DNA of 64,000 nucleotides, from assembly GCA_029204225.1 (NCBI GenBank), contig MU831572.1, positions 1 through 64,000 of the forward strand, in the 5' to 3' direction. The notes beneath the pieces are model-generated. The model saw only the letters and a list, made by a program, of their open reading frames with translations. It ran no database searches and was not told the origin of the DNA. Position 1 is the stretch's first letter; each line of letters opens with the position of its first letter. The position numbers and the translations under genes are program-made. This stretch comes from Diphasiastrum complanatum. Its lineage: Eukaryota; Streptophyta; Lycopodiopsida; Lycopodiales; Lycopodiaceae. Below, piece after piece: positions 8,066 to 37,795 of the stretch.

Positions 8066-9130
8066 TCCTACAAACAAGGTTATTTGAACAAATTACTAAC
8101 AATGTGTATTTTCAATTGAGTTTATTTTTACACATAGAAAATTTGATACTCCCTCATTTATTTTCACAGAAAGAATATTCAACTCCAATGCCGACTGCAA
8201 CAATCAAAATGAAATTAGAATCAATTTTGACAGGATTATAATCATCAAAATAAAAGACATCAACCTTATTTTCATATGGAATTTAATAGAATTTGGCCAC
8301 TGGACTACAGTCGATGAAATATACAGCCCTTTCAAAAGTGGCCTCTTTTGCCTTCACTGCCGATATGAAAAAAGTGGAATAACAACAAAAACATCTCCTA
8401 TGGAATCGAGACTGATATTGTGCTACAAAATTTTTGGCCGGCTTATACAATTGTATCTGTAATCTCTAAAGTTTTATCTTTAAGCTCTATACAAAATTTG
8501 AGACCTGATCGAAAGCTTCTATTTGAATCTTGAAGAAAAAAAGTCAAAATAGTTGCTGAGCATATCAATTTTTGTTCACAGATTCTATCACTGAGGATCT
8601 GTGAAACATGGTTTTGGGTTTCTTTACTCTACTTACAGGTTGTTTCTGCCCGTTACTAGACGGTTAGGCATTCTTGATGTTATCTTATAATACATTGCCC
8701 AGATTAGGCAAAAAGATTCGATTCGTAATATAGTATATATTTAAATCCAGCCTGTCAACGGATTCTCAAGTCACGTCACGCCAGAAGCACTCACAAAATC
8801 AAGAAATATGCAAGCCAAGAACATCCATCTAAAGATAAGCATGCAATTCAGATGAACTCCATATAGTTCTAGCTTCTATCTACTGTAAAACGTTTGAGAA
8901 ACCAATCAAGATTCTCAGATTAATTTAATGTATCAACAGAAATGAAACAACAAGAAACAAGAAATTCCCAAGCTTTGTCGGCCACCTGCAACATCTCCCT
9001 GAGTTTAGGTCCATTTTGTACTTGTTGGATCGTGAGATCTGTCATGAGGTTTCCTAGCAAGATGGACGGTTGCTTGTTCTTGATGCACTCATGGAGGCAA
9101 TTCGAAGCAAACTGGGACCAATCATAAAGT
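8066..9130. other. No gene recognised
   Basis: AT-rich sequence with only short frames on both strands. No repeat boundary or transposon signature was found. Confidence 0.4.
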
Positions 9131-9199
9131 TTCTAGTCATGCAGTCGTGAATCTACCAACATGTGGAACATGGACATTGGAATCCTCATGATCTTCGAC

Positions 9200-9670
9200 T
9201 TATACCGTTGTGTGACTTGGTCAAGTAAGCACAAGCAGCAGTCAGAGCTGGATCATTGATGGCATCGAAACGATACCCATCTTTCATCTTTCACTTTTCA
9301 GCAGAGGGATCGATGAACTTGAAATAAGCTGTTTTTTCGATCTTTTGTAATGTTCTGGTGACTGCATTTGGTCCCCAAGGGAAGCCAAGTTATGAAGTTC
9401 TGCTAAAAAAAGAAAGACGTTGTATACATCATTGGAGGGATGATGAAATTGCATGACCTTGCGGTGGCGTTGTAAGAGGCATAGTTCATGTGCAACATAT
9501 ATGGACTTTGGTACCCAAATAGAAGAGGTATCTGGAAGTCAATCTGAGTCAGGAACGTGCTTGCTTGCTGGTACCAAATTGTCATTTCTGCCATGTTCAG
9601 CTTACCCATCTGGATATTGATTTTATTTGCATCTGGATCATCTGAACTTGAGGACTGGTGGGAAGACATG
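9200..9670 (-). pseudogene. Unknown coiled-coil family, copy 1 (N-domain remnant)
   Basis: The minus strand contains a partial N-terminal domain related to that of copy 2 (11.6-14.2 kb) and copy 3 (18.6-21.6 kb). The clearest match is KDGYRFDAINDPALTAACAY near 9240-9290, aligning with TNDGYLLDAITEPAIHVVAR of copy 2. Upstream, YQQASTFLTQIDFQIPLLFG occupies the place of the segment before it. The reading is broken into at least two frames. No linker, coiled coil or C-domain was found for this copy. Function is unknown; see copy 2. Confidence 0.55.
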
Positions 9671-10373
9671 CTTGAAACTGGAAAAAAAATATTCTGGAAA
9701 AATGGACTCGGTTGCGATTTGAGATAGAGGTGATTGTGATGAGAAGACTCGGTCGAGGTGGTGAAGGACGGACGCAGTTGAGATGATGACAGATAGACGT
9801 GGTCGAGAGGGTGATGAGATGATGTGGTTGAGATGATGATGGATAGACGCGGTCGAGAGGGTGATGAGATGACATGGTTGAGAGAGTGAACCGATGACGT
9901 GGTTGAGAGTGTGAAGCGATGACGCGGTTGAGGAGGATGAAGTGATGATGTGGTTGAGAGTATGATGAGATGACATGGTTGATGAGGATGAGTAACTTGG
10001 TCGAAATAGAACTAAGAATGTGTGGAAAGTGGAGGTGTATGAAAAATGTTGTGTGGGTAAGAATAGAAATCGATGGAGTGAGGTTGGATTTAGAGAGGGG
10101 ATAATGTGAAGTAGAATGGCTAAAAAATACAAGGATGTATAGATGCCAGTGGAGTATGGAAAGGTTGAAAGGATGGAAATGATGGATGACTGTGGAAACA
10201 GAATGTGTAGGTGGTGAAGGAAGGTTTGTAGAGACAGAATGGATGAGCTGTGGTGAGAGGATGGTGGTGGAGACGAGAATGAAGTTATAAGACAAGGAGT
10301 ATGGAATGGTAGAAGTATTGAAAAGATGTTTCACAATAGTGAAACTAGAGCGTGATTTGTGCCCTAGCTGCAC
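9671..10373 (-). repeat. Low-complexity and minisatellite region upstream of copy 1
   Basis: From about 9720 to 10000 the plus strand repeats short phrases such as GATGACATGGTTGAGAG and GATGACGTGGTTGAGAG at roughly 30-36 bp spacing, giving long His/Ser/Leu-rich open frames on the minus strand. To 10373 the sequence stays purine-rich. The frames are open because of composition, not because a gene is visible. Confidence 0.6.
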
Positions 10374-10699
10374 TACCCCTTAGAGCTTCGATGTGAAAGA
10401 GTTGGCGATGAAATTTTTTTACCTTCTGACGATATTAGGTTTTTGATCTCCGTGGTGATGGCACTTATACTCATGGTTGGATGGTATCGCGTGATAGTCA
10501 AGGAACAGGATGTCTGAAGTATGAGTGATCGATGGAGTGGATGAGCGCCAAGAATGTGGATGTGTGCAAGAAAATCGCCAGAAAATTGTCATAGGAAAGC
10601 TCCAAAGTTTGCACGTCACTGAGGTAAGAATGTGTTCGTTCTTGACGTATTTATAGTCACTCGTTGAATCTCCTCAATCGAGATTTTTTAAAGTGCCCG

Positions 10700-11453
10700 A
10701 CCCGGTCGTGTAGTGGGTTTCTTTCCTTGCCTAACCTCAATCCAAGATCTAATCAATCTAGCATCAAAGAGACGAAGTTAGTTGTCACGCGTAGATTTGT
10801 TCCCATGAGAGCAATAGTATAGTTCAGAATTCAGCATGAATGGAAGATCCAAATCTAACTCTGACATCCATTAACCCTAAGCATTAACACTACATCCACT
10901 AACACTAGATCCAAAACAAAGATAGCTTACTCTTTCTCTCTCTCCCTTTCTCACTCATAAAAAGTATAATAACATGCAATCCCAATAACAATCAGATCCA
11001 ACAATTAGCAAAATCCAAATAAACATGAGAGATGGAGGAAAAGTAATAGAGAGCAAGGACATTCATCAATTCATTTCACAAGAGAACCAATCTGCTTTAT
11101 TGAAATGAGAAAATGAACATCTGTAGGAACTCGAGTTGGTCCCTTTTTATAGTAGAGAGGAGGACCCTGGCCTCTGAATCCTATTGGTCCATTTCTGCCT
11201 CCCTAATTACTCAAATTTAAAAAAGAGTAGGAACTATCCAAATTGGAGGGAAACCCAACTTTATTCACTAATTTGACATTTAGGCCCTGCAACATTAAAA
11301 GTCTCGCAAAAAGGCCTAAAGTCCTTTTATTGACTTTCTAATTACTCAAATAACTATGTGATCATTGGGTTGGACTTACACACGCAGGGTGCCAAATCCC
11401 TCTCACTTATTAATAGGGTTAGGGTTGCCTTGGGATCCGCAAACCCTCCAACA
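10700..11453 (-). mobile_element. Probable 3' LTR of the element carrying copy 2 (left boundary uncertain)
   Basis: On the minus strand this begins TGTTGGAGGG at 11453, directly after a purine-rich tract. It contains a TATA box (CTATAAAAAGGGACC near 11143-11157) and an AATAAA signal near 11095, in the order expected for U3-R. The left end could not be fixed because no matching second LTR or target duplication was found; 10700 is approximate. It lies immediately downstream of the copy 2 coding remnant. Confidence 0.55.
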
Positions 11454-11471
11454 ATATCCCCCACCAAAACT
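11454..11471 (-). other. Polypurine tract of the copy-2 element
   Basis: The minus strand reads TTTTGGTGGGGGATAT and abuts the LTR start TGTTGG. This is the usual position and composition of a plus-strand primer for LTR retrotransposons. Confidence 0.6.
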
Positions 11472-11589
11472 AGTGGCGGTCCCACGACACCTACAAGATG
11501 CAGTTATTGAGACTTTCATTGGCTTCACGACGAATTTTTATTAAATGATACTGCACCTTCTCCATAAAATTGAGTCGGACAGTATTAAA

Positions 11590-14235
11590 ATCCAAATTAT
11601 GTGGCAAAAAATAATGATGGGCTCCTGCAATCCACTTTGAGGTCGTCCATGATGTGAAGCGAGATTTCCAGGAGCCTCCCATCATTGCTGCACGAAAATA
11701 TAATCGAGCAAGGGCAACTGATCCTTGATACTCTCTCTGAGGCCATTGGCTTATTTGGATCGAATGCCAGAGGAGGAAGACAATCAACCCATCTAGTTGT
11801 CACTGATGCCAACAAAGTTAAATCTTTTGCAAACATCGCCAATTGTCGCACTATCGGATCGGGAGAGTGGATATACTCCCGCTGGTACGCTTGTAAGGCC
11901 CGGTGAAAATCCACTGATATCGTCCAACTGAATGGCTGATGGATGATTGGCCAATTGGGCATATGGATTGTAATTTTGTCCATAGCCAAATCCCAAATCC
12001 TTCCATTTATTTTGTCGCGCTCATGAGGATGTTGCAATAAGAAACTTTGGATCTGGTCCTTGATGTTGATGAGCCTTCTGAATAATGGTGTGGTCCTTGA
12101 TGAGGATGGACCCGGTTGCACTGCCCGTGGAATTGGGTGTTGTTCTTCCATGTCTGGAGCTCTTCCCTGGTCGATATTCGAATCCAGCCCTGTATCCATT
12201 GGTGCATCCTCTTGGCGCGTATGGGAGAATTGCGACATGACCGGTATTGAGATTTGAGGTCCAGCTTCCAACACCTAAGCGACTGCTTTTTCATAGGCAC
12301 TAATAGTTTTTTTAGCCTTTGCCAACTCAGTTGAAGCTGCTTCTTTGAACATGTCAAAGCGGTCTTGGAATCCCTGAAGGGCCACTTTGTAAGTTTCCAT
12401 CCGTCGGAGTTACTAGATGATCTGGTATTTGCGTCTGAAGATACGCATCACGCTCAAGGGTGGTCTCATCCAATTCACCTTGGAGACGTGTGCGTTCCTG
12501 CTCTGCCATTTGCAGTTGACCTTGTAGTAGCTGCACTTGTTGCTTTGCATCCTGCACAACCTTGTCCAGATGATCTTGTGCGGTTGTCAGGGATAATGCA
12601 GGGAGCTGACGTATCCTTCGAGGTGATCAGCCTGTTGCTATGTCGTCTTTTTCTCAGCTTTGGATTTTTCTTTGTGTTGTTTGGCGATCTTCAATTCTCT
12701 GTTCAACTGAATAATCTTCTGGCTGATAAGAGTGTATTCTGATCTCATATCCGAGATTCTCTGCTCCGTTTCTTTTTTCTTCTCCAACATAGACTGGATC
12801 ACTTGCTCAAGGCTTGAGACCAAACCGAGAGCATCACCAGAACCTACTATCGTGGAGGTGGTACCAACAGAAGGACCTGATGATACTGTGCTTGGTTGAC
12901 GTGAAACAGGTGCCGGTAATTCTTCTTCTTTAAAAAGATCTTCCTCTTCAAAGCCCTCAAGCATTGTGGCGTCGAACTGCTTCGATGATTTCACAACTTG
13001 GACGACTTGAAGTGTGGCTGGTGTGGCTTCATCTTGAGGTTGCTGGCATGAATCTTCAACATCAACAGTAGTATCATGGAATTGTTCGAATCCTCTTCTA
13101 GTGGATTGGAGTTCAAAGGGTGCATGGCTTTGGGGCATTTCAAAAACTTCGGAGGCCCCAAGGGGGCCGGAATCATCAAACATATCCATAAAGTATTGTG
13201 TGTTTGGTGAAACATCTTCGGTGTGCAGGGGTGAGGCGGCCTAGGCAGCTGTGATGGGAATGGTAGCCCCAATAGTCACAGACTGTCCTTGAGTGGAAGC
13301 AAAGGCAAGGGAAGCATCAGAGACGGGAGGAATAGGAAGTTCAGTGCGAGTAGCAGCAGGGGGTTGAAGCGCAGCTGACGATGTATGCCTAGTACGACGT
13401 CGTGATGCGGAAGGCGAGTCAGGAATGGCGATCTCGCTGCGTGGACAACGTCGGCTATGTGAACTAGAGGCCTGGTGGGATGACTCGGCCGGTGCTTCTT
13501 CATAAACCGAAAGTATAGAATCCAGGTGAAAGCCATAGATTTTGTTTTCAAGGTGGGAGGCCACTAGAAGAGATAACAAGGGGCCAGTAGCGAACTGCTG
13601 CTTGGTATCGCTCTTAATGGCTCGTTTGAGCTCAACAGAAACAGTCTTGAACCAGTTAAATGGTTTAAGAGGGACTTTGGCTATCTTGGCATAGGACTCG
13701 ACTATCCTATCTAGGATCCAAAAAGTGATGCAGTCTTTCTTGAGGTTGCCAACCATCAGAAAGTTATTTAGAAGACGGGCAACAACATGTATGGCAGGCT
13801 CAGTGATGGCATCGAGGAGATAACCATCGTTGGTCCAATGCAAATTGTTTGTTAGGTTGATGTAAGGCTTAATAGCCTGTTTGGCCTGCTTATGGTTGGG
13901 TGAGGCTTGGTTACCAGACGCTATGCCTATGGCAGCAAGGGCGGCCTCAGTCATGCGCACCTTGTGTGTGGCTCCCTGGAAGGTGATGTAAAACTTGGAT
14001 TTCTCTTACTTCCACGTATTGAAGGCAAGACTGATGAGATCCATGTTGATTTTCCCCGAAAGGCTCTCTCATGAATACCCATTGCAATAAGCAGAGGCTC
14101 CGCAAGGGTCATCCACTGAGTGACCATGCTTGTGCTAGGAAGTATCATGATATTTGTCGCAGATGGGACACCACGATAGATAGTATAACAAGGAGACTGG
14201 GATGTATCTGTAGAAGACATGATGACCAGAAACAA
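11590..14235 (-). pseudogene. Unknown coiled-coil family, copy 2 (gag-like or extra retroelement ORF)
   Basis: The longest copy of an unrecognised protein family, about 870 codons in broken frames. In order: a globular N-domain (14220-13550) with PLLIAMGI, FYITFQGATHKVRM, DGYLLDAITEPAIHVVARLL and LLNNFLMVGNLKKDCITFWI; a Ser/Pro/Arg-rich linker (13550-13190); an acidic stretch; a coiled coil (12850-12340, for example EKKKETEQRISDMRSEYTLI and QLQMAEQERTRLQGELDETT); and a C-domain (12270-11600) with DKITIHMPNWPIIHQPF and SPDPIVRQLAMFAKDLTLL. The same order recurs in copy 3. The following polypurine tract and LTR imply that it belongs to an LTR element, perhaps as gag or the extra ORF known upstream of gag in Ogre-type elements. 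No zinc knuckle, protease or RT was seen with it. Confidence 0.6.
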
Positions 14236-14709
14236 AAAGTAAGACGCGCGAATGTATATCAGAAATCAGTTTAGAAAGTTTGGAAGGCTTTGGTCGTGAA
14301 AAAAATTCGCAAGAGTTTCGCTAGCACAAGTGAGGAATGAATTGAATTCAGCCAACTTATAGATGAATTTGGAGGGTCCATTACATTGAATACTAGTTTG
14401 GCTGATCAATTCTGAACAAAAATTTGCAGGCATGTACAATACTGTGAAAATAGGCTATAAAAATCTCGGCGAAGGTTTCTGAGGGTCTGAACCTATCTAG
14501 CGAACGTTTTCCAGGGTTGGCGTAGGATGAACCTTCGCGCAAGAGGGTCCTTCGCCCAAGTACTGTCATAAATGCATTTTTTCAAGATCTGAGGTCATAA
14601 CCAACTCAATTTTAACATTTTACGACCATCTAGCATGTCAGCGAAGGTTCCTAATGAGGGTAAGGTGCTCGACAAAGGTCCCTAAAATGGCATATTGATG
14701 ATCATTCGC

Positions 14710-15090
14710 CTGACTCAAAAAATGAATTTTTTTTGGACAAGAACCTCATTATAAATCTTAAAATAACCAAGATAGATTTTTGACAATTTTTTACATTCAT
14801 GTGAACTCTCATCTTCCCTTGGCCTAGGTTCGCTTGGCTTTGACCTTGCTTCCTCTTGAAGCACTCAAAGGCATAATGTCCCATCTTGCTACAATAGTAG
14901 TATTTACAACAGCTAGTGAATGGATCCAGGTTAGCAGAGAGATAGGGATGGAGATGATAGAAATCCAACACCTTAAGCCTAGTTTATTTTGCTTACAAAG
15001 AGCTTTTCTCTTAAAAAACTCAAATTTATCAATACTTAACGCATTAGCAAGTATGTCTGCTATGTGATACCTCAATAAGGTCATTTAAGA
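14710..15090 (-). pseudogene. Copia gag zinc-knuckle fragment
   Basis: The minus strand encodes YYCSKMGHYAFECFKRKQ, a CCHC zinc knuckle (first Cys near-intact) from Copia gag, followed by GQSQANLGQGK. It closely resembles the zinc knuckle of Copia G at 44.7 kb (YYCSKMGHYVSECFKRKQ), so the two derive from related elements. Flanking frames break quickly. The piece lies beside the 5' leader of copy 2. Confidence 0.75.
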
Positions 15091-15449
15091 TGAACAACGA
15101 AATATATTTGACTTTACTTAATCGAATTCAAATACATAAGAAGACTAAGGAATCAGTATATGGAGAAATAAATGTTGAAGGCCTTACATCAAAAACCCTA
15201 TGAAGAAATACACTTTAATGGAAGAACATAGAAAGTGATAATGTCCTAATAAATGGATAAGACTGAATATCGAATATTCTATAATCCAGTCGGAGCATTC
15301 ACGACTCTTTCTTTAGTTCTGACTTTACACGTGTAATCATGAAATTAGTTTAGAATGACATGGCAGAGTACTAACTCATCAATTTATACACATGTCAATA
15401 TTTCATTAGTTCAGATTGGATAAGATTTTATAATATAGAACGATTGTGT

Positions 15450-16740
15450 CTTCTCGATTCTTCCTTTTAGCTACACCATTGGGGATTGAGGTGAGTAGCT
15501 GGTTGTGTAATGCTGATGTATTCCATTTGTCTTGCAGAAGTCCTTGAATTCGGTGGAGATGAATTCTCCCCTTCCATCAGTACGTAGAGCCTTGATCTTT
15601 CTTTGAGTCTAATTTTTAGCAGACGCCTTGAACTATTTGAAGGACTTGAAAGCTTCAGATTTGTTCTTCAAGAAATAAGTGACAATTCATCGAGAGAAAT
15701 CATCAATGAAATTTAGAAAATAAAAGGCTCCCCTTGTCAAAGTAGTCTGCATTGGGCCACAGATGTCGCTATGTACAAGATCAAGCAAACCTTTAGAAGT
15801 ATGAACTGAATCAGAAATGAAAGGACTTCTTGCATGCTTGTTGATAATAACAACTTTCGCAAGGAGAAGTCGGTTTGCTAACAAAAGGAAGATCTTGCAC
15901 TAAATTTTGAATCGACATTTGCTTGATACTATTGAAGTTTAGATGGCCTAATCTAAAATGCCAAAGCATATCAGTCGATTCAGAAGTCGATGTATGAAGA
16001 GCTTGGCTATTTGTCGAATAGCAGTGACTAAGCTTGTAGAGGTAGCCACATCGTCTACCGAAGGCTAAAATCTTCCTAGACTTGTCGAGTATGGTGCAAC
16101 CCTCTGTATCGAATTTGACCCTTTGACCAGAATTAGTGATTCTACTTATCAAAAGTAAATGTAAGGTTAGGAACATGAAGCACATTTGACAACAACTTTA
16201 GATCACCTTTTTTGAATTCAACTTTGACTGTTCCTTCACCTTTGATAGTATGAGATGAATTGTCTCCAAACTGCACAACTCTTGAGTGAGTGAATGCTTT
16301 GTAACCTGGAATCAGTCTCAATGGTGAGTCATGTATTGAGTTGCTCTGGAGTCCAGATACTAGGAGTCGATATCTTGTTGCTCTCCAACCTTGGTCATGA
16401 AGGCTGCTTTATCTTCCTCTTGTTCCTGGATCAAGTGACTGGTCATAGCAGCATTGGCTTGCTGTTGGAATTTGCTTCTTTTACTTATTGTTGTACTTCA
16501 AAGTTTGACAATCCTTTATGAGATGACCAGTCCTCTTACAATATTTGCATAATAGCATCTACATTGGCTGGAATGATGAAGATCCTGATGTTGTTTGTGT
16601 GTTTGATACAGACTACTGCATGTTGCTCCTCTTGTCAGTGTAATCTGACTTTGTAGATCTCTTGGAGCTAAACTTCTAATTTTTCTTTGTGTATAGAGCT
16701 TGTGGATCCGATCCAAAGCCGGAGGAGGAAGCATTCCTTC
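15450..16740 (-). pseudogene. Copia gag-integrase fragment (element P)
   Basis: The minus strand preserves, in order, a Copia gag zinc knuckle (CKYCKRTGHLIKDC, near 16555-16515), degraded protease sequence, the pre-integrase HHCC-type region (LWHFRLGHLNFNSIKQMSIQ and CESCYYQQACKKSFHF, near 16000-15850), and the start of the integrase catalytic core (DLVHSDICGPM and FLNFIDDFSR, 15790-15690). The integrase continues in broken frames to about 15450. Several frameshifts and stops are present. No RT or RNase H follows before the gag fragment at 14.7-15.1 kb, so this is a 5'-half remnant. Confidence 0.85.
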
Positions 16741-16832
16741 TGATCTCCTCTTGTAGTAGTATCAAGTGATATAGTGAGATGCTGCTGGGTTGAAATAGCT
16801 CCATAAGGACGTTGGGAGTATTCCCAACATAT

Positions 16833-17630
16833 TGTAAATAGATAATATCGGCTAATAAAATATGTTGCAAGGGCATGGCATCCTGCGCATATAAGCTCAT
16901 GGCCCAATGAGCACGCAAGTTGAGTTGTAAATAGAATAATAAATTTGGGCCCTTTTGTAATTAAAATAAAATTGAGGCCCAAAGTCAAGTTAGAAACTTA
17001 GTGATAACTCTTTTATGTTGGGTCCAAATGGAGACTCACATGAATCATGTGAAATCCAATGTACTTTTTAAGAGCTTTGGATCAAGTTGGGTCCAAGATG
17101 AATGGATAGGATTAGTGTACATATTAGCCGATAGTATTCTGGGGCAAGGGCCTTTCCCATTTATAAAAAGGCACCTCTTGTACTCTATTTTCATGCTTAA
17201 TGAGAAGGAGGAAACTCTACCAAATTTTGGAGAGAAGCATCCTCACTTGCTATTCACTACTTGCTAATGTGCTTGATTGTGTTTTCTTTTTGCTCTCAAG
17301 TTGCAAGTTTTTGGTTTCCATAGTTAAAGTTTTTGCATTAGCAAGCACAAGGAGCATTTGAGCTAACCTCCACCCTCACACTCTCTCTCCACCTTCTCTC
17401 TATTACTCTCTTCCTCTCTTCTATTCTATTCTTCTCCTTCACAAAATCATGATGAATGTTAGTTTAGTGGAGTAGAGTTAGGAGTGTGCAGTGTTAGTGG
17501 TGATAGAGTTAAAGAAAAAGTAGAGAACTATCTAAAAATAGCATCTATTCATAGTTAGGCACCTATCCAGTGTTCTAACCCTTGTTGAAAGGCAGGAGGG
17601 CTACTACAACGCGAGATCTTTGACCCTACA
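16833..17630 (+). mobile_element. Probable 5' LTR of a gypsy-type element (start uncertain)
   Basis: The sequence ends CCTACA at 17630, one base before a TGGCGCC primer site. It contains a TATA box (TTTATAAAAAGGCACC near 17158) followed by a pyrimidine-rich leader. A TGTAAATAG start at 16833 coincides with the end of the Copia P remnant. A 19-bp phrase near this start (TAAATAGATAATATCGGCT) recurs with one change at 21572-21590, possibly a trace of the 3' LTR. The start remains an inference. Confidence 0.5.
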
Positions 17631-17631
17631 G

Positions 17632-17649
17632 TGGCGCCATTGTCGTGGA
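17632..17649 (+). promoter_or_regulatory. Primer-binding site, TGGCGCC type
   Basis: TGGCGCCATTGTCGTGGA lies one base after the LTR end. It resembles the TGGCGCCGTTGCCGGGGA-type priming sites of plant Ty3/gypsy elements and is about 1 kb upstream of the copy 3 coding remnant, linking the protein family to a gypsy-type element. Confidence 0.6.
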
Positions 17650-18630
17650 TAGGTTTCCACTAACTAGTATAGCTGCATTTTAGCTATTTCTTGCTTTTTG
17701 GAGTAGTTTTAGGTAGATTTTTGGGTGTTTAGAGTTAGTTTTCTGTACTTTTCTGCATTTGGACTGTTCACGGATAGCGGAGGAGGTGTGAGAGGGCAGA
17801 GGAGGCCCTGAACAGTCTCTAAGGGCTTAAAATTCAAACCAACCAGTAAAAAAACCAAAAAAACACACCAATCTTTATTTTGGAGGGAAAAAGAGCCAAA
17901 TTTCCCATCAGATTTTGTTTTCTCCAAAACTAGTGAGGCACTTTTTTCATGATTTTTGGAGATCCTCTGGGAAATAGCTATTGAAACTTGGACAGTCACT
18001 AGATTTGACCCAGATGCATCTATGGAAATCTCTTCGAGAGTTACTGATGGAAAAAAACATCATTTTTTAATGTATGCAAGGGTTCCAAGAAGCAGAATAT
18101 TCAGAACCTTCGCAAAGCATCAAGATCATCAAACCGACCTTTGAAAGGGGCAAAAATGGAATTAAAGCAGTGAAATTAACCTGCCTACATGGTCTGATCT
18201 TGAAAATCCTACCACGGGAGCAAGTTGTGCAAGCATTCACTTCATGCAAGGATTGAACCCTCACAAACTGTCTGAACCCTCGCAGAACCTTCGCAGGGTA
18301 GCCAAATTACCTTCTAAACTCTCACAGACTTCTCTAAGATATTAGAATTTTGTAAAGAAGGTATATGCCAAAATTTGGGTGGAATTGAGCAAGGGAAAGT
18401 GGATTTCACCTAATACGCACTCTAAGTTCCGCTATATGAGGGCTGAATTCGAGTCATTTGTCACCTTTCCTAGCGAAGCTTTGTTCAAATTTTGACCAAA
18501 TTTTCCAAGTTCTATCTGCGCTCTGAACTGTTGTTACTACCATCCAACTCTTGTTATCCACTGTTTCCATCACTTTTTATCTTTTCCACCACTTTTTCTA
18601 CTTTTTCACACTTTAACTATCACTGCTAAC

Positions 18631-21550
18631 ATGGCCTCCTCACTTTCTGACGACTCTGGCACCAAGCAGATGATCCAGCGCGAGATACCCTCAGCCACCC
18701 AAATTTGGCCCTTGCCTTATGAAGCCATGATTAAACCATGGCTCTAGATTGCTGGCGCACTTCTTGAAGCAATGGGTTTTTACCCAGTGCTTTTCAGTCT
18801 GACATTAATATGGGCCTCGTCCTTCATGCTTACGCCACCTGGGACACGCCAAAGTTGCGTTTTCACTTTCTGTGTCAAGGTACCACATACAAGGTACGGA
18901 TTAACGCATACTCGATGGTCACTATTGGCATTATGTTCGGTGACCGCCAGCCCATCTCTCATCGTCAGGCAAGAGCCCTGATAAAACCTTTTGTCACCCA
19001 AACTGCACCAGAATGGGTACCGGATAGAGGCTATTAAGGAACAGTGATTCAGGTGGCTACGCATCTGTTGAACAACTTTTTGGTTGTTTCAACATTTCTC
19101 AAGGACAGAATCCAGTCCATGCTACTGAGTCAGATTGTGGAGTCTTTTCTAGGACTCCCTGGTCCCATGGTGGTGCCATATGACTGGCATACCTTCCTCA
19201 TCCGCGAATTAACAAAATCCATCAAACCAAACAATCAAAGATCTCATTATTAGGTGCAATCTCTAGGAACAAGTATGATTCCCAGTAACAATTTAGCGGG
19301 TCCCCTGTTGTGTAACTTCACCTAGGCACTTCTCGAGGTAAAAGTGCACGGGTTCCACTGTTCCAACAGCTTATCATCCACTATGCCACACACTAACCTT
19401 TATCCTCCATCAACCGCATCCATGTTTGCCCAACCTGCAGTCATTGACACGACAACCAACAAAAGAATGCTTGGCACTGTCCCTCTTCCTAATCCCCACC
19501 TGCTACCAGACGCTACACCACCACCACCACACCAGTAACAACTTTGGCTTCTACCATCGGCACTTCCTCTCATGTACAGTCCCCTACCATTGTTTCTGTT
19601 GCCGCTCCTCTTTCTTCTATTCCACCCACAACTGCTGCTTCTGTTTCCATTCTCATCTCCTCTGTTGATACTACTTCTATCTCTATTCCATTTTCTACCA
19701 CCTCTTCCATTACTATCGCATCCTCCATTACTCCTGTTCCCACCACTATCCCTCTCCAGTTCAATCCTGTCGATTCCCAATTCTCTCCGGACAATCTGGT
19801 GTGGATGTAGGTCATCAACTTTTCACCACCATGCCAGACCACTTCCGCCCCATCTTTTCTTTCCGTCCTCAGCACCACCCTACAGTTCCCCTTTGTTCCA
19901 TCCATTCTCTCATTTGAACAAACTGTTCTCATCCCTGTTTCCACTTCCGTTCCTCCCACACCACCCATTTCTCCATCAAAGGATACTAAGGGCGACCAAC
20001 CATTGCCTGATGATGCATTTGTACAGACAATTTTTATTCCACCAGATCGGACAGATCCCACCACCCCAGATGACAAAAGGTCACCGAAGAAACTCATTGA
20101 AGACAATGACGATGGCATTGTACATGTCGTCAAGTCCACTACCACACGATTTCCTGCAAGCACCAATGTACCGGCTACTCCAATGGACTTGACAATAGCC
20201 TACCAAGCCTTGGGAACATTCATATAGGACGCGGTAGCAACCAGGACATCATTGGACAGCCGGGTTCTCCATTTGGCAACCAACAACACCCATCTGTGAG
20301 CAGAAATCACGAAGCTGCAGCAAGAGCTCATGATTGCTCAACAACACGAACAAGACGGGCACCGGGAGATCACAAAGCTGCAACAGAAGGAAGATGGCCT
20401 CAACCAATATATCTAGATCCTCTCCAAAGCGCTGACAGATGCCTCCACCAAGGTGCGGGAGCTTCAGTCTGAAACATCCCAACGGCTTGCCCCACTCCAG
20501 GCGCAACTCCAGATATATGAAATAGAAAATATGCGCCTGGGAGCGAAGGTGCAAGCCCTGCAAAGCGAAAAACTTGCCTAGTTAGCTCAACCCGCACCTG
20601 ACTCAAGGCCACTGTCTCAAGACGAGATGAATCTTTTCAGGCATCAGGTGCAGGTCTATAGTCAAACTTTGAACATCTACCAGGCAAAATTCGACAAATA
20701 TCAAGCCAGTGCAACTCAGGAGCTCACCCAGGCCAAACAAGCCCTCAAGGCTTGTCAACAATTCATGGAGAAGAAGACTTAACTAACCTCAGTGGTGATT
20801 CCAACGTCATCTCTTTTTAATGCTACACAAGCAAGTACAAGCCAGGACCAAGGCCAGCAGGCAGCAGGGGCAATAAGTCAAGATCAGGGGTCATGCGGGC
20901 AAGGACCTCCTGATACTGGGGCTGAGACACAGGACCAAGGACAAGACACAGGTCCCAGCCATAGCCATGAGGAGGGACAAGCCTCCTCATAAAGAGGCTC
21001 GTGAACTATATCTGCCAACCGGGCTTTCCGATGTCCCAAGTCTGTGGAGGAGAAAATCAACGAATTTCTAACCAAATATATCTCCACGAGTCCTCAAGAG
21101 ACACTGGCAGATATCATTTTCGGCACAAACCATAAAAGGCAACGAGCTGCAAGCACTACCCGCCCTCCAACCATAACCTGAGTGGCGCCAGCAGCTATTT
21201 GAATGGGACCCTATGGCCATCATGGCCTATGTGACCAGTCCACAACAACTAAGGGTGAACACGCATTTCCTACCATGCACACGACGATCCAAAGGGGTGG
21301 AATGTAGCACTCCTCCGGACAAGATCACCATCCAGAACTGTAATTGGCCGAAAATCCCTTCAGAGCACGGTTGGGATATGGATGTAGACACCCGAAGGGC
21401 TCTCACCCAGTTCTCTAATAAGTATTTCAACTGCCCTGACCCAACAGTCCACGCGGTAGCCACTTACGCTCAGGACTTAGAGTATCTAATGGGAATCGAA
21501 ACGAGTGGGATAATTTTCTCCCACCAATATTCTTTGATCCAAAAAAGGTG
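18631..21550 (+). pseudogene. Unknown coiled-coil family, copy 3
   Basis: Plus-strand copy with the same architecture as copy 2. The N-domain (18631-19250) includes GALLEAMGFYP, NMGLVLHAYATWDTPKLRFH, FLCQGTTYKVRI and VATHLLNNFLVVSTFLKDRI. A very Pro/Thr/Ser-rich linker spans 19330-20190, a Gln/Glu-rich coiled coil 20240-20780 (for example KLQQELMIAQQHEQDGHREI and RLAPLQAQLQIYEIENMRLG), a DQGQ-type repeat region 20830-20990, and the C-domain 21030-21550 (DKITIQNCNWPKIPSEHG, NCPDPTVHAVATYAQDLEYL). Five TAG stops (18745, 19251, 19323, 20414, 20579) fall where Gln is plausible; other stops and frameshifts also occur. It sits 1 kb after an LTR-primer site pair. Unknown function; most likely a retroelement structural protein. 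Confidence 0.6.
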
Positions 21551-21559
21551 TTAGCCTCA

Positions 21560-22330
21560 AAGAAAGTGGAAGATCAGCTAAATAAATAATATCGGCTGGT
21601 AGGCTGCTGTTGGAAACTCTGTTTGCTACTATTTTTGGCTGCCATCAGTACCTTTTATTAGTTTCTTTTGTCTCTTGAATGCTTTGTCAAGTTCATGTGT
21701 ATCAAAGGTAGCATTAGGATGCTTTTCCATTTCTAGCTTTTGTAGCTTGTTGTGCAAAGATCTAAGGCCAAGTATTTTGATAGTTGGGATCCATTCCAGA
21801 TCCACTTTTTTCACACGTTATCAGAGCTAGTTGGCTATTATTTTTAGTAAGGCTTTCATTTATGGTGATATTTGGATGTTTGATCAAGTTCTAGCATGAT
21901 TATGCATTGCATTGTTGATCAAATCTTACTGACCTTTGTTTTGTGAGCTGAACTTGTGGATCAAAAGCATATTTTAGGTCTATTGCAGATCAAAGGCTAA
22001 GAAGAAGCTATTTTGGATCAAATCATCACATCTATCATTTTTTGATTGTGAGGCTTGTGCATATTCAATACTAACAATGATCTTTTCATTCTATTGTTGA
22101 CAATCTCCATTTTTTGGATGAACACTCTCCTACCCTGGAAGACAAGTTAAAGGTGGCCACGTAATCAGCACCTTCCGTCCATGCAAAACACAACCAGTTT
22201 CCGGACATCAGTTCGATGGATCTGATGGAGGAGATGGGACAAGATTCCAACAGCCTACATCAATAAATCAAGGATCGACATTCCAAGGACTGTGACAAGT
22301 ATCGGTAGCTCATCCACCAACTAAATCACA
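21560..22330. other. Unassigned, with a degenerate Copia-like primer site
   Basis: TTATCAGAGCTAG at 21819-21831 resembles the tRNA-Met primer site TGGTATCAGAGC and follows TTTTTTCACA, an LTR-like end. No matching LTR start or second copy was identified. A minus-strand frame at 21629-21814 (KLQKLEMEKHPNATFDTHEL) looks protein-like but is unrecognised. Confidence 0.3.
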
Positions 22331-22338
22331 AGACACTG

Positions 22339-23312
22339 GTGGTGCTTCCTCCCAACACCATCTCTTCCATTCTTTCGCTTCTATTCCCATCGACACAACT
22401 AACTTTCCCTTCATTCAACACCAATTCTCTCCAAAATCTCAACGCATTGCTGAATCTAACCCCTCACCACCTCTCTCCCCTCAACCTGATCCACAAGAAG
22501 AACATGCCTTGGAAGTTGAAGCACCCACAACAAGGCAGAAGATCACGCCCAATGTGCCTAGCAAGGATTTGCTTACATCTCAAGAGTTTGCAAAGAAGTA
22601 TCAAACTGCCAAGGAGCAAGATGGCTACATCCTTCCAAATCTTGATCATTGCAAAACTCATAAGGAAGTGGTTAAACTCCTAGATCCACAACCAGCCTGG
22701 TGCCATCAGCTATTTTTACAGAGCAAAACCTCCATGGCATGTATCTTGATGCACTCGCCTATATGTGCACCAATGCATATTATTATCTGGTAGCACGACA
22801 AGAATCATTTCCTACCACCAAGGGAAAGAACAAGATTTTTTGGCCCACGCTCACAGGTGTGGATACCGGCAACCCAACTGATGACATGGTCACAAATTGT
22901 TGTATATTTTACCAAAAGCACCATGGAAACCTTGATCACGATGTGCATTATTTTGCAGATAATTGTGACTAGGTAGCATTTTTGACAGAACTAAAAGGTT
23001 ATTGGGATCGAGGGCTACCACCAATTGCCATCAACGTGAATAAGTGTTTGAAGACTCAAGATGACCACATCAACATAGCATGGCTTTAGAATCGAATAGT
23101 CCTTACTTCTGCGTTTGTTGATATGGTGGAGGTGTGGAACTCAAGAATTTTTTCAGGGTATGCTCCACTATTACAAAACAATGTCATTCCTTAATAAATT
23201 GCGCTGGCAAATGATGGAGGGCATTAGCAACAAGATTTACCAATCTCGCCTCCAGAAAGCTCAAAAGATTTAGGATGAAAAAGCTTTAATATGTGTGGGA
23301 CCACCAATCCAA
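22339..23312 (+). pseudogene. Decayed coding region upstream of a polypurine tract
   Basis: Overlapping plus-strand frames look coding in sections: SKDLLTSQEFAKKYQTAKEQ at 22560-22620 and NLHGMYLDALAYMCTNAYYY with CCIFYQKHHGNLDHDVHYFA at 22725-22960. The last has a CX2-type cysteine-histidine spacing loosely like a zinc knuckle but is not a clean CCHC. The reading ends at the polypurine tract, so this is probably the 3' end of the internal region of an LTR element, possibly the same one as copy 3. No family was recognised. Confidence 0.4.
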
Positions 23313-30960: not shown

Positions 30961-31191
30961 TTTAGCTCTACACTCATTCAAGATGAACATATTTTCTAAG
31001 TGCACTGTAGTGAGATGGGTCTTTATCTAAACGTGATGCTATCAGTGGCGTCCATTGCACTAGCATCTGCCTGGGGAGCTAAGGTAAAAAACTCTTCGCT
31101 AGATCCATTACTTGCAACTTATCCATCTCGACCAAAAGAAGAGGGCAGGTACTATTGCATGGCGTGGAAAAAATAGGTGTATGCCAAGTAT

Positions 31192-32403
31192 TGTAGCGCA
31201 GGCATCCTAAAGGGAGCCGGGAACCACGACTTAGTGAAGCGCAGGCATCCCAAAGGGAGCCGGGAACCACGACTTAGCTTCCCAGCCTTCAACTCTTGCC
31301 ATCCAAACCCACTGGACATACAAGCAGCCAACTCGCCAACAACGATCAGACTTAACCCACTTGAAGCTCCGAAAACCAACATTGAGATCCAATCTGGCGC
31401 CATGCCAGATCGGGGGTCCCGATGTGGGTGACTTCCCTCCAAGCAAGCCGCCCGACATACATCAAACTTAACCAAATTGAAGCTTCGTTACAAACGAGTA
31501 ACATCCATTGCAAGCAAGCAGTCTAACTTACATCAGACTTAACCAATTGAAAGCTTCGTCACGAGCGCTGGAAGCCAACCTGGCGCCACGCCAGACTGGA
31601 CAGCCATAAACAGGTAACTTCCACCCAAGCAAGCCATCCAACTCAGCCGACAGGTTAGAGCCCGTTCCCCAAGAGCTTAACCCATTCACGTTCATGCAAG
31701 GAACACTCAGAAGCACAAGCCGCTACAGATATGGAGACAACCAATTCCTGGACCAAATGGTCCCGACAGCATACTACTGGCGTCCTGGGATACGACCCTC
31801 CGCTATGTGCCAAGTTAAAAATTTTGAAAGCGGCCTTACAACTGGCGCTTTTACCGAACACTAAAATCCAGAAGGTAATCAGAGTCAGTTACATTTCAAG
31901 TGTGTGACCGACCCTAGTCTCCGGGGCGCTAGCATGCCAAGGCGAGAGCCATGACAACATTCCAGCAAGGGAGGCTGAGACTTGGTTGGAGCTCGCCCTG
32001 AGTCGCAACCCGCACTCCCATATAGTATTGGTGTGATTCGGCACCCCCCCTCATACCAAGCACTCTACTCAAGCTGGTAAAGCACGTTTTTCTCTCTCTA
32101 GGATTTTCTCTTTCTAGAAAGTCATTTTCTCTCTCTAGATTTTATTGATCCCCAGGCTTCCTTTAATCATGCCTAGATCGTGTGAGGTGATTGCACATCG
32201 ATCTGAGCTCTCTGGACTCCACTAGAACCGATCAAATATTTTCAGCCATAGGAACTTGGTGCCGGCTGGATTCTGGTCACAGTGGCGTCGGGAGCGGCGC
32301 GGGCGCCGTTGGCGCCTGGAGCAGCAGGGGCGCTGCTGGCGCCGGGGACATAGCTGGCGCCGATGGCGCCAGAAGTAAAGCTTGTAAAGGTAGCTTTACA
32401 ACA
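31192..32403 (-). mobile_element. LARD-type LTR copy A
   Basis: One of four related LTRs. On the minus strand it starts TGTTGTAAAGCTACC at 32403 after the purine tract GGTGGGTGGA, and ends GCGCTACA at 31192. The U3 end is GC-rich with many GGCGCC palindromes. A 47-bp piece (GCGCAGGCATCC...CGACTTAG) is duplicated in tandem at 31195-31285. No coding sequence is evident. Confidence 0.85.
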
Positions 32404-33972
32404 TCCACCCACCGTTATAAAATCTGATGTCGTCATCAAATGTCAGATTAAAGTAAAGGTGTCTCCCAATTAAAATAACTATACATTTAAGCTACTTGGC
32501 ACAGTACTCAATTTACTTGCCACTTTTTATTAACATTGAAGCTAGCACACCATAAGTCGGAGGCTCAGCTCTTTGTACTGAAAAATTACATAACTTGAAA
32601 ATTTCTCTTTGTTTGGGAAAAGCGTAGATTTTATATCGCTTACGTAAAACCCAAGAACCTTATTAGTTGGTGACAGAGGCCTTTCTGTGAAATGTTCGTT
32701 CCTGTCGCTTCTGACTTTTTGACTTTGGAACTCTTTTGAGCTCCTGATTTGTCCTTGATGCACTTTGTGTTGAGCTCCCTGAGATCCAGATTTGATCAAT
32801 TCCGCACAGGTATCAAGGCTCCCTGAGCTAAAGGATTTATCGTTTGATTGCCCACTTTATGGTCCACTCTGTGCCTTGTTGCTTTCGCGTCTGGATTTTT
32901 CTCCTTGGCCCAGCCTGATCTTAATACTTTTCCTTCTTGGCTCTTTAAGGTAGGCAAAGATTGAGTACTCCGCAATGCACCTCTCACTTAGCTTGAAGTA
33001 GCTCTTTGAATCAGCCCAAATGTAACCATTAACCTCGTGGAGAGCCAAAGGGTCGCACTAGTTTGATTCGCATACGAACTATCTCTTCGCGTTTGTTTGA
33101 AGTACCAAGTCTCTCATGCAAGACTCAACCTTCACAGTTCCTTCATTTATCAGCTGCCTTACACGTAACACAAGCGATCGTACTCATATGTTTCCTCATC
33201 ATTGTTGGTCCAGAGAAAGCCTATAACAAACTTTCCATTCCGCAACAAAAACTTGTCAACCTATTAGGTCCAAAGTTCGCCAGTCTCCTCGTGTGACTTT
33301 GGCTAGGTCACCTTGAATTTGCCCCTGTTTTAATCATTTTTCATTCAAAATTTGCCCCAAGAGAGAGGTGTGTGTGATAGTTTCCCTCTTGTTTATAATA
33401 TCAGCTGACCGAACTTAGAGTAGAGTTCTTCAAACAAAAAGCCTTTCCAACACTTTGCTTCCCATCTGCTAGGATTATGGCTTGATCCAACTTGTTGCCA
33501 ATCTCTGAAGAGGATCCTAGTCTTTTCCCCTTTGAGGAAAAACCCAACTGATAACTGGATATCAACCATGCTCAGTGACTTTCAGTTCCGAAGGTGGCCA
33601 TCTAAAATGAAGATCGACTGCCCATACAGATCGATCACAGAATCAGCCCACAAAGAACACCCCTCCAACTATCCGTGCTTTCACCATTAAGCAGCACATT
33701 GCCTCAGTCACGCCCCACCACTTTTTGGTCGATATCCCTTATAGCTAAACGATCGACAGCTATCCCGCACCGGCAGCTAACCACCCATGCTTTACACCCG
33801 AATTCGAGCAGCATCTCTGTATCAATGGTTAACCCGTACAGTTCGAATATGTCGCTCCGCAACCCACAAGGTACAGACCGTGCTTACACCAACCTAATGG
33901 CAGCACACTGCGTGATCTGTCCTACGTGCACACAACGCTAGGCCCGAACTGCGAGAACTGACCGTGCTTACA
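32404..33972 (-). mobile_element. Internal segment between LTRs A and B (1.57 kb, no primer site)
   Basis: Homologous to the longer internal segment at 35216-37795 but shortened. About 640 bp is missing near 33612, where the reading jumps from the equivalent of 36600 to that of 37268, and the segment joins LTR B at ...GTGCTTACA/TGTAGC without the tRNA primer site. The polypurine tract at the LTR A side is present. Open frames do not agree between copies, so I regard it as non-coding. Confidence 0.8.
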
Positions 33973-35215
33973 TGTAGCGCAGGCATCCCAAAGGGAGCCG
34001 GGAACCACGACTTAGCTTCTCAGCCTTCAACTCTTGCCATCCAAACCCACTTGACATACAAGCAGCCAACTCGCCAATAACGATCAGACTCAACCGACTT
34101 GAAGTTCCTGAAAACCAACATTGAGATCCAACCTGGCGCCATGCCAGATCGGGGGTCCCGATGTGGGTGACTTCCCTCCAAGCAAGTCGCCCGACATACA
34201 TCAAACTTAACCAACTCGAAGCTTCGTTACAAACGAGTAACATCCAATCCAAGCAAGCGGTCTGACTTACATCAGAATTAACCAACTGAAAGCTTCGTCA
34301 CGAGCGCTGGAAGCTAGCCTGGTGCCACGCCAAACTGGACAGCCATAAACAGGTAACTTCCACTCAAGCAAGCCATCCAACTCAGCTGACAGGTTAGAGC
34401 CCGTTCCCCAAGAGCTTAATCCATTCAAGTTCATGCAAGGAACAGTCAGCACCACAAGCCGCGACAGATATGGAGACAACCAGTTCCTGGACCAAATGGT
34501 CCCGACAGCAGACCGCTGGCGTCACGGACCGAATGGTCCCGACGGCATACCGCTGGTGTCCCGGGATATGACCCTCAGCTATGTGCCAGCTTAAAAATTT
34601 GGAAGCGGCCTTACAACTGGCGCTTTTACCGAACATTGAAACCCAAAAGGTAATCAGAGTCAGTTTGAGAAAAATCCCACTTTATTGATAAATCTGAGAA
34701 GGTTACATTTCAAGTGTGTGACCGACCCTAGTCTCCGGGGCGCTAGCATGCCAAGGCGAGAGCCATGACAACATTCTAGCAAGGGAGGCTGAGACTTGGT
34801 TGGAGCTCGCCCTGAGTCGCAACCCGCACTCCCCTATAGTATTGGTGTGATTCGGCCCCCCCCTCATACCAAGCACTCTATCCAAGCTGGTAAAGCACGT
34901 TTTTCTCTCTCTAGCATTTTCTCTTTGTAGAAAGTCATTTTCTCTCTCTAGATTTTATTGATCCCCAGGCTTCTTTTAATCATGCCTAGATCGTGTGAGG
35001 TGATTGCACATCGATCTGAGCTCTCTGGACTCCGCTAGAACCGATCAAAGATTTTCAGCCATAGGAACTTGACGCCGGCTGGATTCTGGTGGCAGTGGCT
35101 CCGGGATGGCTCCGGCGCCGTTGGCGCCGGGAGCAGCAAGGGCATTCCTGGCGTCGAGGACATAGCTGGCGCCGATGGCGCCGAAAGTAAAGCTTGTAAA
35201 GGTAGCTTTACAACA
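33973..35215 (-). mobile_element. LARD-type LTR copy B
   Basis: About 1.24 kb. On the minus strand it starts TGTTGTAAAGC at 35215, directly after the purine tract AAAGGTGGGGTGGA (35216-35229), and ends GCGCTACA at 33973. It includes a shared block (GAGAAAAATCCCACTTTATTGA near 34660) that copy A lacks. Confidence 0.85.
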
Positions 35216-36544
35216 TCCACCCCACCTTTATGGAATCTGATGTCTCATCAGATGTCAGATTAAAGTAAAGGTGTCTCCCAATTAAAATAATTATACATTT
35301 AAGCTACTTGGCACAGTACTCAGTTTACTGGCCACTTTTTATTAACATTGAATCTGGCACACCACAAGTCGGAGGCTCAACTCTTTGTACTGAAAGATTA
35401 CATAACTTGAAAATATATCTTTGTCTGGGAAAAGCGTAGATTTGATATCGCTTTCGTAAAAACCCGAGAACCTTATTAACTGGTGACAGAGGCCTTTCTT
35501 TGAAATGTTCGCCCCTTCGCTTTTGACTTTCGACTTTGGAACTCCTTTGAGCTCCTGATTTGTCCTTGATGCACTTTGTGTTGAGCTCCCTGAGCACCAG
35601 ATTTGTTCAGTTCCGCACAAGTATCAAGGCTCCCTAAGCCGAAGGATTTATCGTTTGATTGCCCACTTTATGGTCCACTCCGTGCCTTGTTGCTTCTGCA
35701 CCTTGATTTCTCTCCTTGTCCCAGCCTGATCTTGATAATTTTCGGCTCTTTAAGGTAGGCAAAGATTGAGTACTCCGCAATGCACCTTGCACTTAGGTTG
35801 AAGTAGGTCTTTGAATCAACCCAAATGTAACCATTGACCTCGTGGAAAGCCAAAGGGTCGCACCAGTTTGATCCGCATCCGAACTATCTCTTCGCGTTTG
35901 TTTGAAGCACCATGTCCGTCCCGCAAAACTTGACTTTCAAAATTCCATCATTGGTCAGTTGCCTCATAGTCAAAACAAGAAGTGTACATCGAGCTTGGCT
36001 TCAAGTAGCTCTCTTTGAATCAGACACATGCACCCAGAGTTTGCACTAGTCCGATCTCAACGCGAACTGTCCCTTAGCGTCCGTTCGAAATACCAAGTCT
36101 CTCATGCAAGACTCAACTTTTACAGTTCCTTCATTGATCAGCTGCCTTACACGTAACACAAGCCAGCGTACTCATATGTTTCCTCATCATTGCTGGTCCA
36201 GAGAAAGCCTATAACAAACTTTTCTTTCCACAACAAAAACTTGTCAACTTATTAGGTCCAAAGTTCGCCAGTCTCCTCGTGTGAGTATGGCTAGGTCACC
36301 TTGAATTTGCCCACATTTTGATCAACTTTCATTCAAAATTTGCCCCAAGAGAGAGGTGTGTGTGACAGTTCCCCTCCACTTATAAAATCAATTGATCGAA
36401 GTTAGAGTAGACTTCTTCGGACAAAAAGCCTTTCCAACACTTTGCTTCCCATCTGCTAGGATTATGGCTCGATCCAACTTGTTGCCAATCTCTGAAGAGG
36501 ATCCTAGTCTTTCCCCTTTGAGGAAAAACCCAATTGATACTAGA

Positions 36545-37045
36545 TATCACCCATGCTCAGTGAGTTTCAGTTCTGAAGGTGGCCGTCCCAAAATGAAGAC
36601 CAACTGCTCCATAGAAGATCTCCCCTGAAATTGCCCTTTCCAACTTTTGATTTCTTGCTTGCGTTTGGTGGGCATTGTCGCAAATGAAACTAACCCAAGA
36701 AACAGGCTAGCCATCCATCCTTTGCAAACATTGAGTCGTTTCGTTGCCGTTCACGTGCGAGTACTTGAACTGCAAATCCGCCCCACAGATTCTGGATATC
36801 ACCCATGCTCAGTGAGTTTCAGATCCGAAGGTGGCCGTCCCAAAATGAAGACCAACTGCTCCACAGAAGATCTCCCCTGAAATTGCCCTTTCCAACTTTT
36901 GACTTCCTGCTTGCGTCTGGTGGGCGTTGTCGCAAATGAAACTAACCCAAGAAACAGGCTAGTCACCCATCCTTTGCAAACATTGAGTCATTTCGTTGTC
37001 GTTTACGTGTGAGTACTTGAACTGCAAATCCGCCCCACAGATTAT
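36545..37045. repeat. ~250-bp tandem duplication inside the LARD interior
   Basis: ATCACCCATGCTCAGTGAGT begins both units (36545 and 36797) and both run to CAAATCCGCCCCACAGATT. The units are nearly identical. The 1.57-kb internal segment between LTRs A and B has at most one partial copy. Confidence 0.9.
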
Positions 37046-37779
37046 GTAGTCCTCTTTGTTTGATGGTATCAGCCTTCAAAAGAAAAGGTTCCTTCTCGAG
37101 CCATCAGCTCCTTGTATCATAAGCAATCATGCAAACCAGACAAAGCACGAGTACTAAGACTCACCACGAATACATACAAGTAAGACACTCAGACAGGTTT
37201 ACTAACAAGTAACAAAGACAAGGTCCCTCTTTGAGATGGTCCTGCCAACGGATCTTTGCCTGGCCGCGCCCATACAAATCGATCACGGAATCAGCCCACA
37301 TAGGACACCCTTCCAACTATCCGTGCTTTCACCATTAAGCAGCACATTGCCTCAATCACGCCCCACCACTTTTTGGTCGATAGCCCTTATAGCTAAACGA
37401 TCGGCATCTATCCCGCACCGGCAGCTAACCACCCGTGCTTTACACCCGAATTCGAGCAACATCTTTGTATCAATGGTTAACCCGTACAGTTCGAATATGT
37501 CGCCCCGCACCCCACAAGGTACAGATCGTGCTTTCACCTCCCTAGGCAGCACTTTGGCTCATCCGTCCTACGTGCAGACAACGCCAGGCCCAAACCGCGA
37601 GAACTGATCGTGCTTACACCTCAAGGGCAGCACCTTGACTCATCAAGTCCCCCGTTCTGCCGACCACCCCGACCGTGGACGCACCCGTGCTTACACTATG
37701 GGTAGCACCTTGCACAACAGTTGTCTTGATGAACCAACCATGGCCATTTTCGTGAGATCCGCATAGATGACCGGCTAGT

Positions 37780-37792
37780 CGGCTCTGATACC
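37780..37792 (-). promoter_or_regulatory. tRNA-Met primer-binding site of the LARD element
   Basis: Minus strand TGGTATCAGAGCC, complementary to the 3' end of plant initiator tRNA-Met as in most plant Copia elements. The same site recurs next to LTR D at 39181-39193. Confidence 0.85.
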
Positions 37793-37795
37793 ACA

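Follow-up and report, generated by a model that had tools for sequence, protein, structure and literature searches.

Remnants of a probable long terminal repeat retrotransposon family with a single coiled-coil protein gene in Diphasiastrum complanatum

Two homologous coding regions with a coiled coil

In this study, we analyzed a stretch of 64,000 nucleotides from Diphasiastrum complanatum (positions 1 to 64,000 of the forward strand of contig MU831572.1, GenBank assembly GCA_029204225.1; hereafter the window). The sequence looks like plant DNA, and Pfam scans detected in it a fragment of a LysM receptor-type host gene and several copia elements. Between 9.2 and 21.6 kb, an initial annotation had proposed three diverged copies of an unrecognized coiled-coil protein family: a short remnant on the minus strand (remnant 1), copy 2 on the same strand, and copy 3 on the plus strand. 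Copies 2 and 3 were found to share a long open reading frame (ORF), a non-coding leader, and long terminal repeats (LTRs), and they probably represent an old LTR retrotransposon family that depended on other elements for its mobility.

Both strands were translated, and all open frames of at least 40 aa were compared with the window. The ORFs of copy 2 (14220-11491, minus strand) and copy 3 (18631-21568, plus strand) are homologous across most of their length. The ATG and N-terminal segment lie in one frame (frame A) of each copy, at 18631-18780 in copy 3 (in-frame stop at 18745) and 14080-14220 in copy 2 (ATG at 14220), and the segment just after the ATG is 38% identical over 74 aa (E value 1e-10). 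A second frame (frame B) carries the N-domain, at 18771-19394 in copy 3 (in-frame stops at 19035, 19251, and 19323) and 13470-14083 in copy 2 (stops at 14071 and 14008), with 33% aa identity over 181 columns (E 6e-22). The C-domain, at 21318-21568 in copy 3 (one internal frameshift) and 11729-11980 in copy 2, aligns in two blocks (E 1e-13), one of them spanning 62 aa with 42% identity. The coiled-coil regions (20207-20761 in copy 3; 12287-12814 in copy 2, with the middle block in a different frame) align in three consecutive collinear blocks of 54, 58, and 39 columns, whose scores were reached by 12, 0, and 0 of 1000 shuffles preserving the heptad register. The short shared motifs quoted in the initial annotation are present in the translations, and the homology extends well beyond them. 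The same domain order had also been described for the two copies, and this stands for the aligned N-domain, coil, and C-domain. As regards the linker (Pro/Ser/Thr-rich, 19395-20206, in copy 3; Pro/Ser-rich and acidic, frame B, 12815-13469 with one stop at 13243, in copy 2), the single piece tried failed to align (z score 0.3), so that its place in the order is by position only. Copy 2 probably has a C-terminal tail in a shifted frame (11491-11728, ending in TAG), as suggested by an open frame at 11491-11799 and by the location of the tail between the C-domain and the polypurine tract; copy 3 lacks the tail.

Neither copy is functional today. Copy 2 contains eight main-frame stops (14083-11700), three of which lie where the middle coil block continues in another frame. 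The ORF of copy 3 is spread over frame A, with its one stop, and three additional frames with three, seven, and two stops. At the level of sequence, the mismatches between the copies show that the ORF evolved as a protein before breaking. In eight ungapped blocks (402 codons), 201, 167, and 261 mismatches fell on codon positions 1, 2, and 3, respectively (Fisher p 3.8e-10, a nominal value, since protein similarity guided the choice of the blocks, some in-frame stops are contained in them, and codon positions are not fully independent). One block of the coil, coil A, opposes this trend (36/21/32). The codon-position bias argues that the protein was made and useful in the past, in agreement with the earlier view of a real family under protein-level selection.

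Copies 2 and 3 also share a -1 frame change at a homologous place (14080, minus strand, and 18775, plus strand), just past the common GCAATGGGT; remnant 1 continues in one frame through this site. GGGTTTT is present there in copy 3 and not in copy 2. Coincident decay, a common old indel, and a programmed -1 slip are all possible.

A conserved non-coding leader

The non-coding leader shared by the two copies (18037-18526, plus strand, with a core block at 18441-18482, in copy 3; 14210-14752, minus strand, with a core block at 14312-14353, in copy 2) aligns at z 23, and 150 of 230 columns are identical (z 22). No other DNA of the element is as well conserved: six ORF pieces gave z scores of 10.0, 5.5, 4.9, 2.8, 0.9, and 0.3, the last of which is the linker. 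When read as 37 codons as a control, a stretch of the leader shows 13/13/12 mismatches, i.e., no codon bias. Since it is conserved without such bias, its likeliest role, judged from the alignment, is that of a cis-acting RNA element. A 42-nt core pattern written from both copies matches both by construction; no third site with up to 3 mismatches was found in the window, remnant 1 included, and no Rfam family was detected in the window at gathering scores.

Low-complexity coiled-coil sequences may resemble each other by chance. The linker and coil are compositionally biased, seven loci in IMG/VR match in the coil only, and coil A is weak alone (the block reached by 12 of 1000 shuffles) and without the codon bias. 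However, it is not the coil that holds the strongest homology, but the globular N- and C-domains together with the non-coding leader. Chance similarity is thus an extremely improbable explanation, and for copies 2 and 3 we rejected it based on the homology of N- and C-domains, leader, and LTRs; for remnant 1 it is still conceivable.

LTRs, primer-binding site, and polypurine tract

The LTR signals noted earlier beside both main copies proved to be real. Copy 3 has a 5' LTR at 16833-17630 (plus strand; ends approximate), which starts with TGTAAATAG and ends with CCCTACA, and copy 2 has a 3' LTR at 10698-11453 (minus strand; far end approximate) with a TATA box at 11151-11142. The two are homologous (local z 10; global score 258, with 228 as the highest of 40 shuffles), and each LTR contains one of the two occurrences of TATAAAAAGG in the window. 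One base after the 5' LTR of copy 3 lies a primer-binding site (PBS), TGGCGCCATTGTCGTGGAT, which starts with TGGCGCC (17632-17650, plus strand); the PBS sequence TGGCGCCATTG has a single occurrence in the window. In copy 2, a polypurine tract, GGTGGGGGA (11457-11465, minus strand), is located 25 nt past the stop codon and directly before the 3' LTR. Copy 3 ends in a 3' LTR stub (21579-21597, plus strand), with 18 of 19 positions identical to 16835-16853. On the strength of the LTR homology, the PBS, the polypurine tract, and this stub, the stretches are interpreted as the 5' LTR of copy 3 and the 3' LTR of copy 2. Neither a 5' LTR nor a PBS was found upstream of the leader of copy 2 (z 1.6 and 1.3 for an LTR match), where a small piece of copia gag is located instead. 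The LTR/PBS/polypurine anatomy is a composite of the two copies, each keeping one half.

These features also bear on two explanations of other kinds. The copies could be a decayed host family of coiled-coil genes with LTRs nearby by chance: plant genomes contain many coiled-coil genes, and the window holds the LysM gene fragment. Nevertheless, the LTRs are homologous, the PBS stands directly behind one and the polypurine tract directly before the other, and a non-coding leader is shared, so we rejected a host gene family as very unlikely. Alternatively, the ORF of copy 2 could be an env-like 3' ORF of an upstream copia element, as in SIRE. Fragments of copia zinc-knuckle, gag_pre-integrase, and integrase domains (Pfam) occupy ~16.6-14.7 kb on the strand of copy 2, upstream of and outside it, and most SIRE elements are described, in part of one survey, as bearing such 3' ORFs (PMC6317226). 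On the other hand, these copia pieces are out of order (by eye, a gag knuckle follows the apparent RNase H end), in copy 3 the shared leader and ORF directly follow an LTR and PBS of its own, without any copia domain, and its PBS is not of the tRNA-Met type. A SIRE-like env ORF was rejected for copy 3 on the grounds of its own LTR and PBS and the lack of a copia domain, and we give this explanation very little credence as a whole.

Behind copy 3, two overlapping open frames of 165 and 98 aa (22296-22972, plus strand), the first of which is Pro-rich, matched no Pfam family at E values up to 0.1; they are possibly another retroelement ORF. A copia LTR at 21.6-21.8 kb was considered, not confirmed, and not used.

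A weaker third remnant

Remnant 1 (9003-9669, minus strand) preserves an MSS start and parts of the N-domain, the latter spread over several frames, and is weaker than copies 2 and 3. It reaches ~9.0 kb, past the earlier boundary of 9.2 kb. Its first frame has the MSS start of copy 2, and a later segment resembles FNWF..ELKRAIK of copy 2. When a two-sequence profile of copies 2 and 3, of the kind suggested by the initial annotation, was run on the window, the best piece of remnant 1 was the top non-member match (E 0.12); its second piece (E 2) ranked below sequence of no relation at 40.6-41.8 kb (E 1.2). The two pieces are in order on one strand. In a frameshift-tolerant scan of both strands, 9013-9364 scored 41 and was the only other N-domain match of at least 36. 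This score is not strong alone, because chance-level matches of the C-domain profile in such a scan reached 38.5. Of the three copies originally claimed, two are thus clear, and the third, limited to the N-domain, is accepted from its sequence with moderate confidence.

Ahead of remnant 1, a strongly pyrimidine-rich tract (10400-9700, minus strand) contains irregular CTCAACCACGTCATC-type repeats.

Searches for pol, gag, and known relatives

Stop-tolerant Pfam searches in six frames of 11.4-14.8 and 17.6-21.6 kb, which cover two incomplete copies, revealed no protease, reverse transcriptase, RNase H, or integrase domain of a pol at E 0.01, and none of the sense frames of the three ORF regions contains a [YF]xDD motif. 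No Pfam gag or capsid family matched the ORF, and the zinc-knuckle and gag_pre-integrase matches obtained are copia fragments outside the element. The ORF exceeded no Pfam cut-off: the weak hits were unrelated families, such as Ecotin (E 0.008) and FAS_I_H (E 0.0052) on coil pieces. Other matches below the cut-offs were WIYLD and REC102 (E 0.015) on pieces of remnant 1 and CERK_C (E 0.13) on the N-domain. The N- and C-domains gave no match among PDB sequences at E up to 10. In IMG/VR, none of the 54 pattern matches of the N-domain alignment and none of the 89 of the C-domain alignment were confirmed; one coil fragment yielded 44 pattern matches, of which 7 were confirmed (42% over fragment residues 12-56) and were taken for generic coiled coils. 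Similarly, all 57 pattern matches of the N-domain alignment in prokaryotic genomes failed confirmation.

Structure prediction with AlphaFold, based on two sequences, gave poor models. That of the N-domain (mean predicted local distance difference test score 41.9) has one beta hairpin followed by helices, and its comparison with PDB by Foldseek was uninformative (89 matches with E values of 10 or less, of which none reached 0.001). The C-domain model (mean 46.8) is all helical, the best part being two helices at residues 121-163. A text (not sequence) search of the literature found no description of the ORF protein, and we do not claim that it is unpublished.

Known extra-ORF proteins of Ogre, Retand, and Athila elements contain the plant mobile domain, Transposase_28, Athila ORF-1, or Transposase_32, according to parts of three reports (PMC6317226, PMC11963269, PMC11728184). 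The ORF may be a very divergent extra ORF of the Athila ORF-1, Transposase_32, or plant mobile domain type that was left alone after loss of gag-pol, a serious alternative, though one we put somewhat short of probable, and one that is compatible with reading the copies as LTR elements. The type of the PBS would place both in the same retroelement group. The order of short strands and helices in the extra-ORF group may be similar to the hairpin followed by helices in the weak N-domain model. In the sunflower report, as far as its relevant parts go, an Athila 3' extra ORF carries Transposase_32, and the present ORF likewise ends beside the polypurine tract; however, the sunflower protein has two blocks of three strands, in contrast to the one hairpin of our low-confidence model (PMC11728184). 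Moreover, a Pfam scan of 10 sequences gave no match to PF03078, PF20167, PF10536, or PF04195 even at E values as high as 10, with HMMER filters on, which drop most weak matches. Since extra ORFs are described as highly divergent (PMC6317226), profile searches may miss a true member of the group.

Other elements in the window

Several further features were observed outside the region of the three copies. A stop-free copia frame of 691 aa (43384-45456, minus strand) runs from gag through integrase to an SH3-like domain, with decayed copia pieces in its neighborhood. At 47008-51342, what is probably a pair of LTRs (at 47008-47805 and at 50552-51342, with blocks that match at 96 and 95%) encloses a ~2.75 kb interior with a TGGTATCAGAGC site at 47807 and no Pfam domain at E 0.01 in the three plus-strand frames; an ORF within it (49360-49869) contains CxxCGK-type cysteine motifs. 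This looks like a young pol-less copia-type element. In addition, 31175-40363 is an array of blocks with units of ~100-300 nt, 2-4 repeats each, 64-95% identity, and spacings of ~1.4, 2.8, and 3.8 kb among others, which gave no Pfam domain in the single plus-strand frame scanned. Finally, an open frame of 318 aa (59846-60799, minus strand) was without a match in Pfam at E values up to 0.1.

A probable non-autonomous retrotransposon family

We consider it probable that copies 2 and 3 derive from an old non-autonomous LTR retrotransposon family with one gag-like or extra-ORF protein, mobilized in trans by an Ogre/Tat/Athila-type helper. The form of the PBS points to the non-chromovirus part of Ty3/Gypsy, and the elements are probably of the Ogre/Tat/Athila kind. 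As a composite of the two copies, the full element would be ~5.5 kb long and comprise an LTR of ~0.8 kb, the PBS, a leader of ~1 kb, an ORF of ~900 codons, the polypurine tract, and the second LTR. The ORF is the sole coding part found in the element and, because it stands alone between leader and polypurine tract, the element looks pol-less and non-autonomous. The initial annotation had suggested a retroelement-encoded protein that is not a standard gag. The LTR element and the absence of a Pfam match to known gag, capsid, or Ogre/Athila extra-ORF families agree with it, and the picture is to be corrected to a single-ORF element devoid of pol.

A possible life cycle can be outlined. The TATA box suggests that RNA polymerase II would transcribe the element from its LTR. 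The conserved leader would most likely act in cis in packaging or dimerization of the element RNA. Given its coiled coil and position, the ORF protein may be a self-assembling scaffold that binds its own RNA, in the role of either a gag-like structural protein or an extra-ORF protein. With no pol in the element, reverse transcriptase and integrase would be supplied in trans by an autonomous Ogre/Tat/Athila-type element, and a tRNA, presumably tRNA-Asp, would prime reverse transcription at the PBS.

Several observations weigh against this interpretation. Neither copy keeps both ends, the second LTR of copy 3 being 19 nt long, and as no copy has both LTRs whole, a pol segment may have been lost, whether before insertion or afterwards. 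Assignment of the copy 3 PBS to plant tRNA-Asp is tentative, since its resemblance to the sequence complementary to the 3' end of this tRNA includes mismatches. No CCHC knuckle (CxxCxxxxHxxxxC) was detected in any sense frame of the three ORF regions, and the ORF matched no gag or Athila/Ogre/Retand protein in sequence or fold. The leader of remnant 1 does not match those of copies 2 and 3 (z -0.5 and 1.8). The role of the leader is deduced from conservation in two sequences, whose consensus fold is weak (-7.9 kcal/mol) with no clear structure.

The initial annotation had also regarded the protein as an undescribed component. This is not proven: the element type is already known, and extra-ORF proteins are reported to be highly divergent (PMC6317226), so that a protein matching no searched family may still be one of them. 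It is rather unlikely that the ORF defines a new protein class, i.e., a scaffold of ~900 residues with N-domain, coiled coil, and C-domain, unrelated to gag and known extra ORFs, which is the sole gene of a long-lived pol-less family and is paired with a cis-acting leader read by foreign reverse transcriptase machinery. The family bears on the question of why pol-less retrotransposons keep a selected protein gene. An element whose sole gene is not a recognizable gag, and whose leader is more conserved than that gene, would allow cis-acting RNA signals to be told apart from the protein, and its dependence on a helper could be tested. If the ORF is instead a distant branch of the Athila/Ogre extra ORFs, it would show that such proteins persist without gag-pol.

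Comparison with known systems

The type of the PBS is presumably consistent with that of the Athila single-ORF families. More generally, non-chromoviruses are reported to use tRNA-Asp and other non-Met tRNAs as primers and to carry highly divergent extra ORFs (parts of PMC6317226). The element resembles SIRE copia elements in that an unassigned ORF immediately precedes the 3' LTR; however, SIRE, as described in the same source, has an upstream gag-pol and a tRNA-Met PBS, neither of which is present in copy 3 (PMC6317226). Like the extra-ORF proteins of Ogre, Retand, and Athila, which are reported as highly divergent, the ORF would encode a protein of unknown role in the same retroelement group, whereas in the sections cited above those ORFs stand alongside gag-pol and the present one stands alone with no profile match.

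TR-GAG elements likewise consist of two LTRs and a single ORF, and one of them, the copia-type ATCOPIA63, has been seen to move despite having no pol; in the cited part of that report, unlike here, TR-GAG ORFs have a recognizable GAG domain (PMC8704663). The non-autonomous Athila families of Arabidopsis are old, with LTRs and a single gag ORF under purifying selection (parts of PMC2410132). The present elements are similar to them in their LTRs, one long ORF, absence of pol, purifying selection on the ORF, and age. They differ in that the Arabidopsis ORFs are recognized as Athila gag, while this ORF matches no gag or Athila model, and in that it has ~900 codons and a long coiled coil, compared with an Athila gag of ~1.9 kb in two table rows of that report (PMC2410132).

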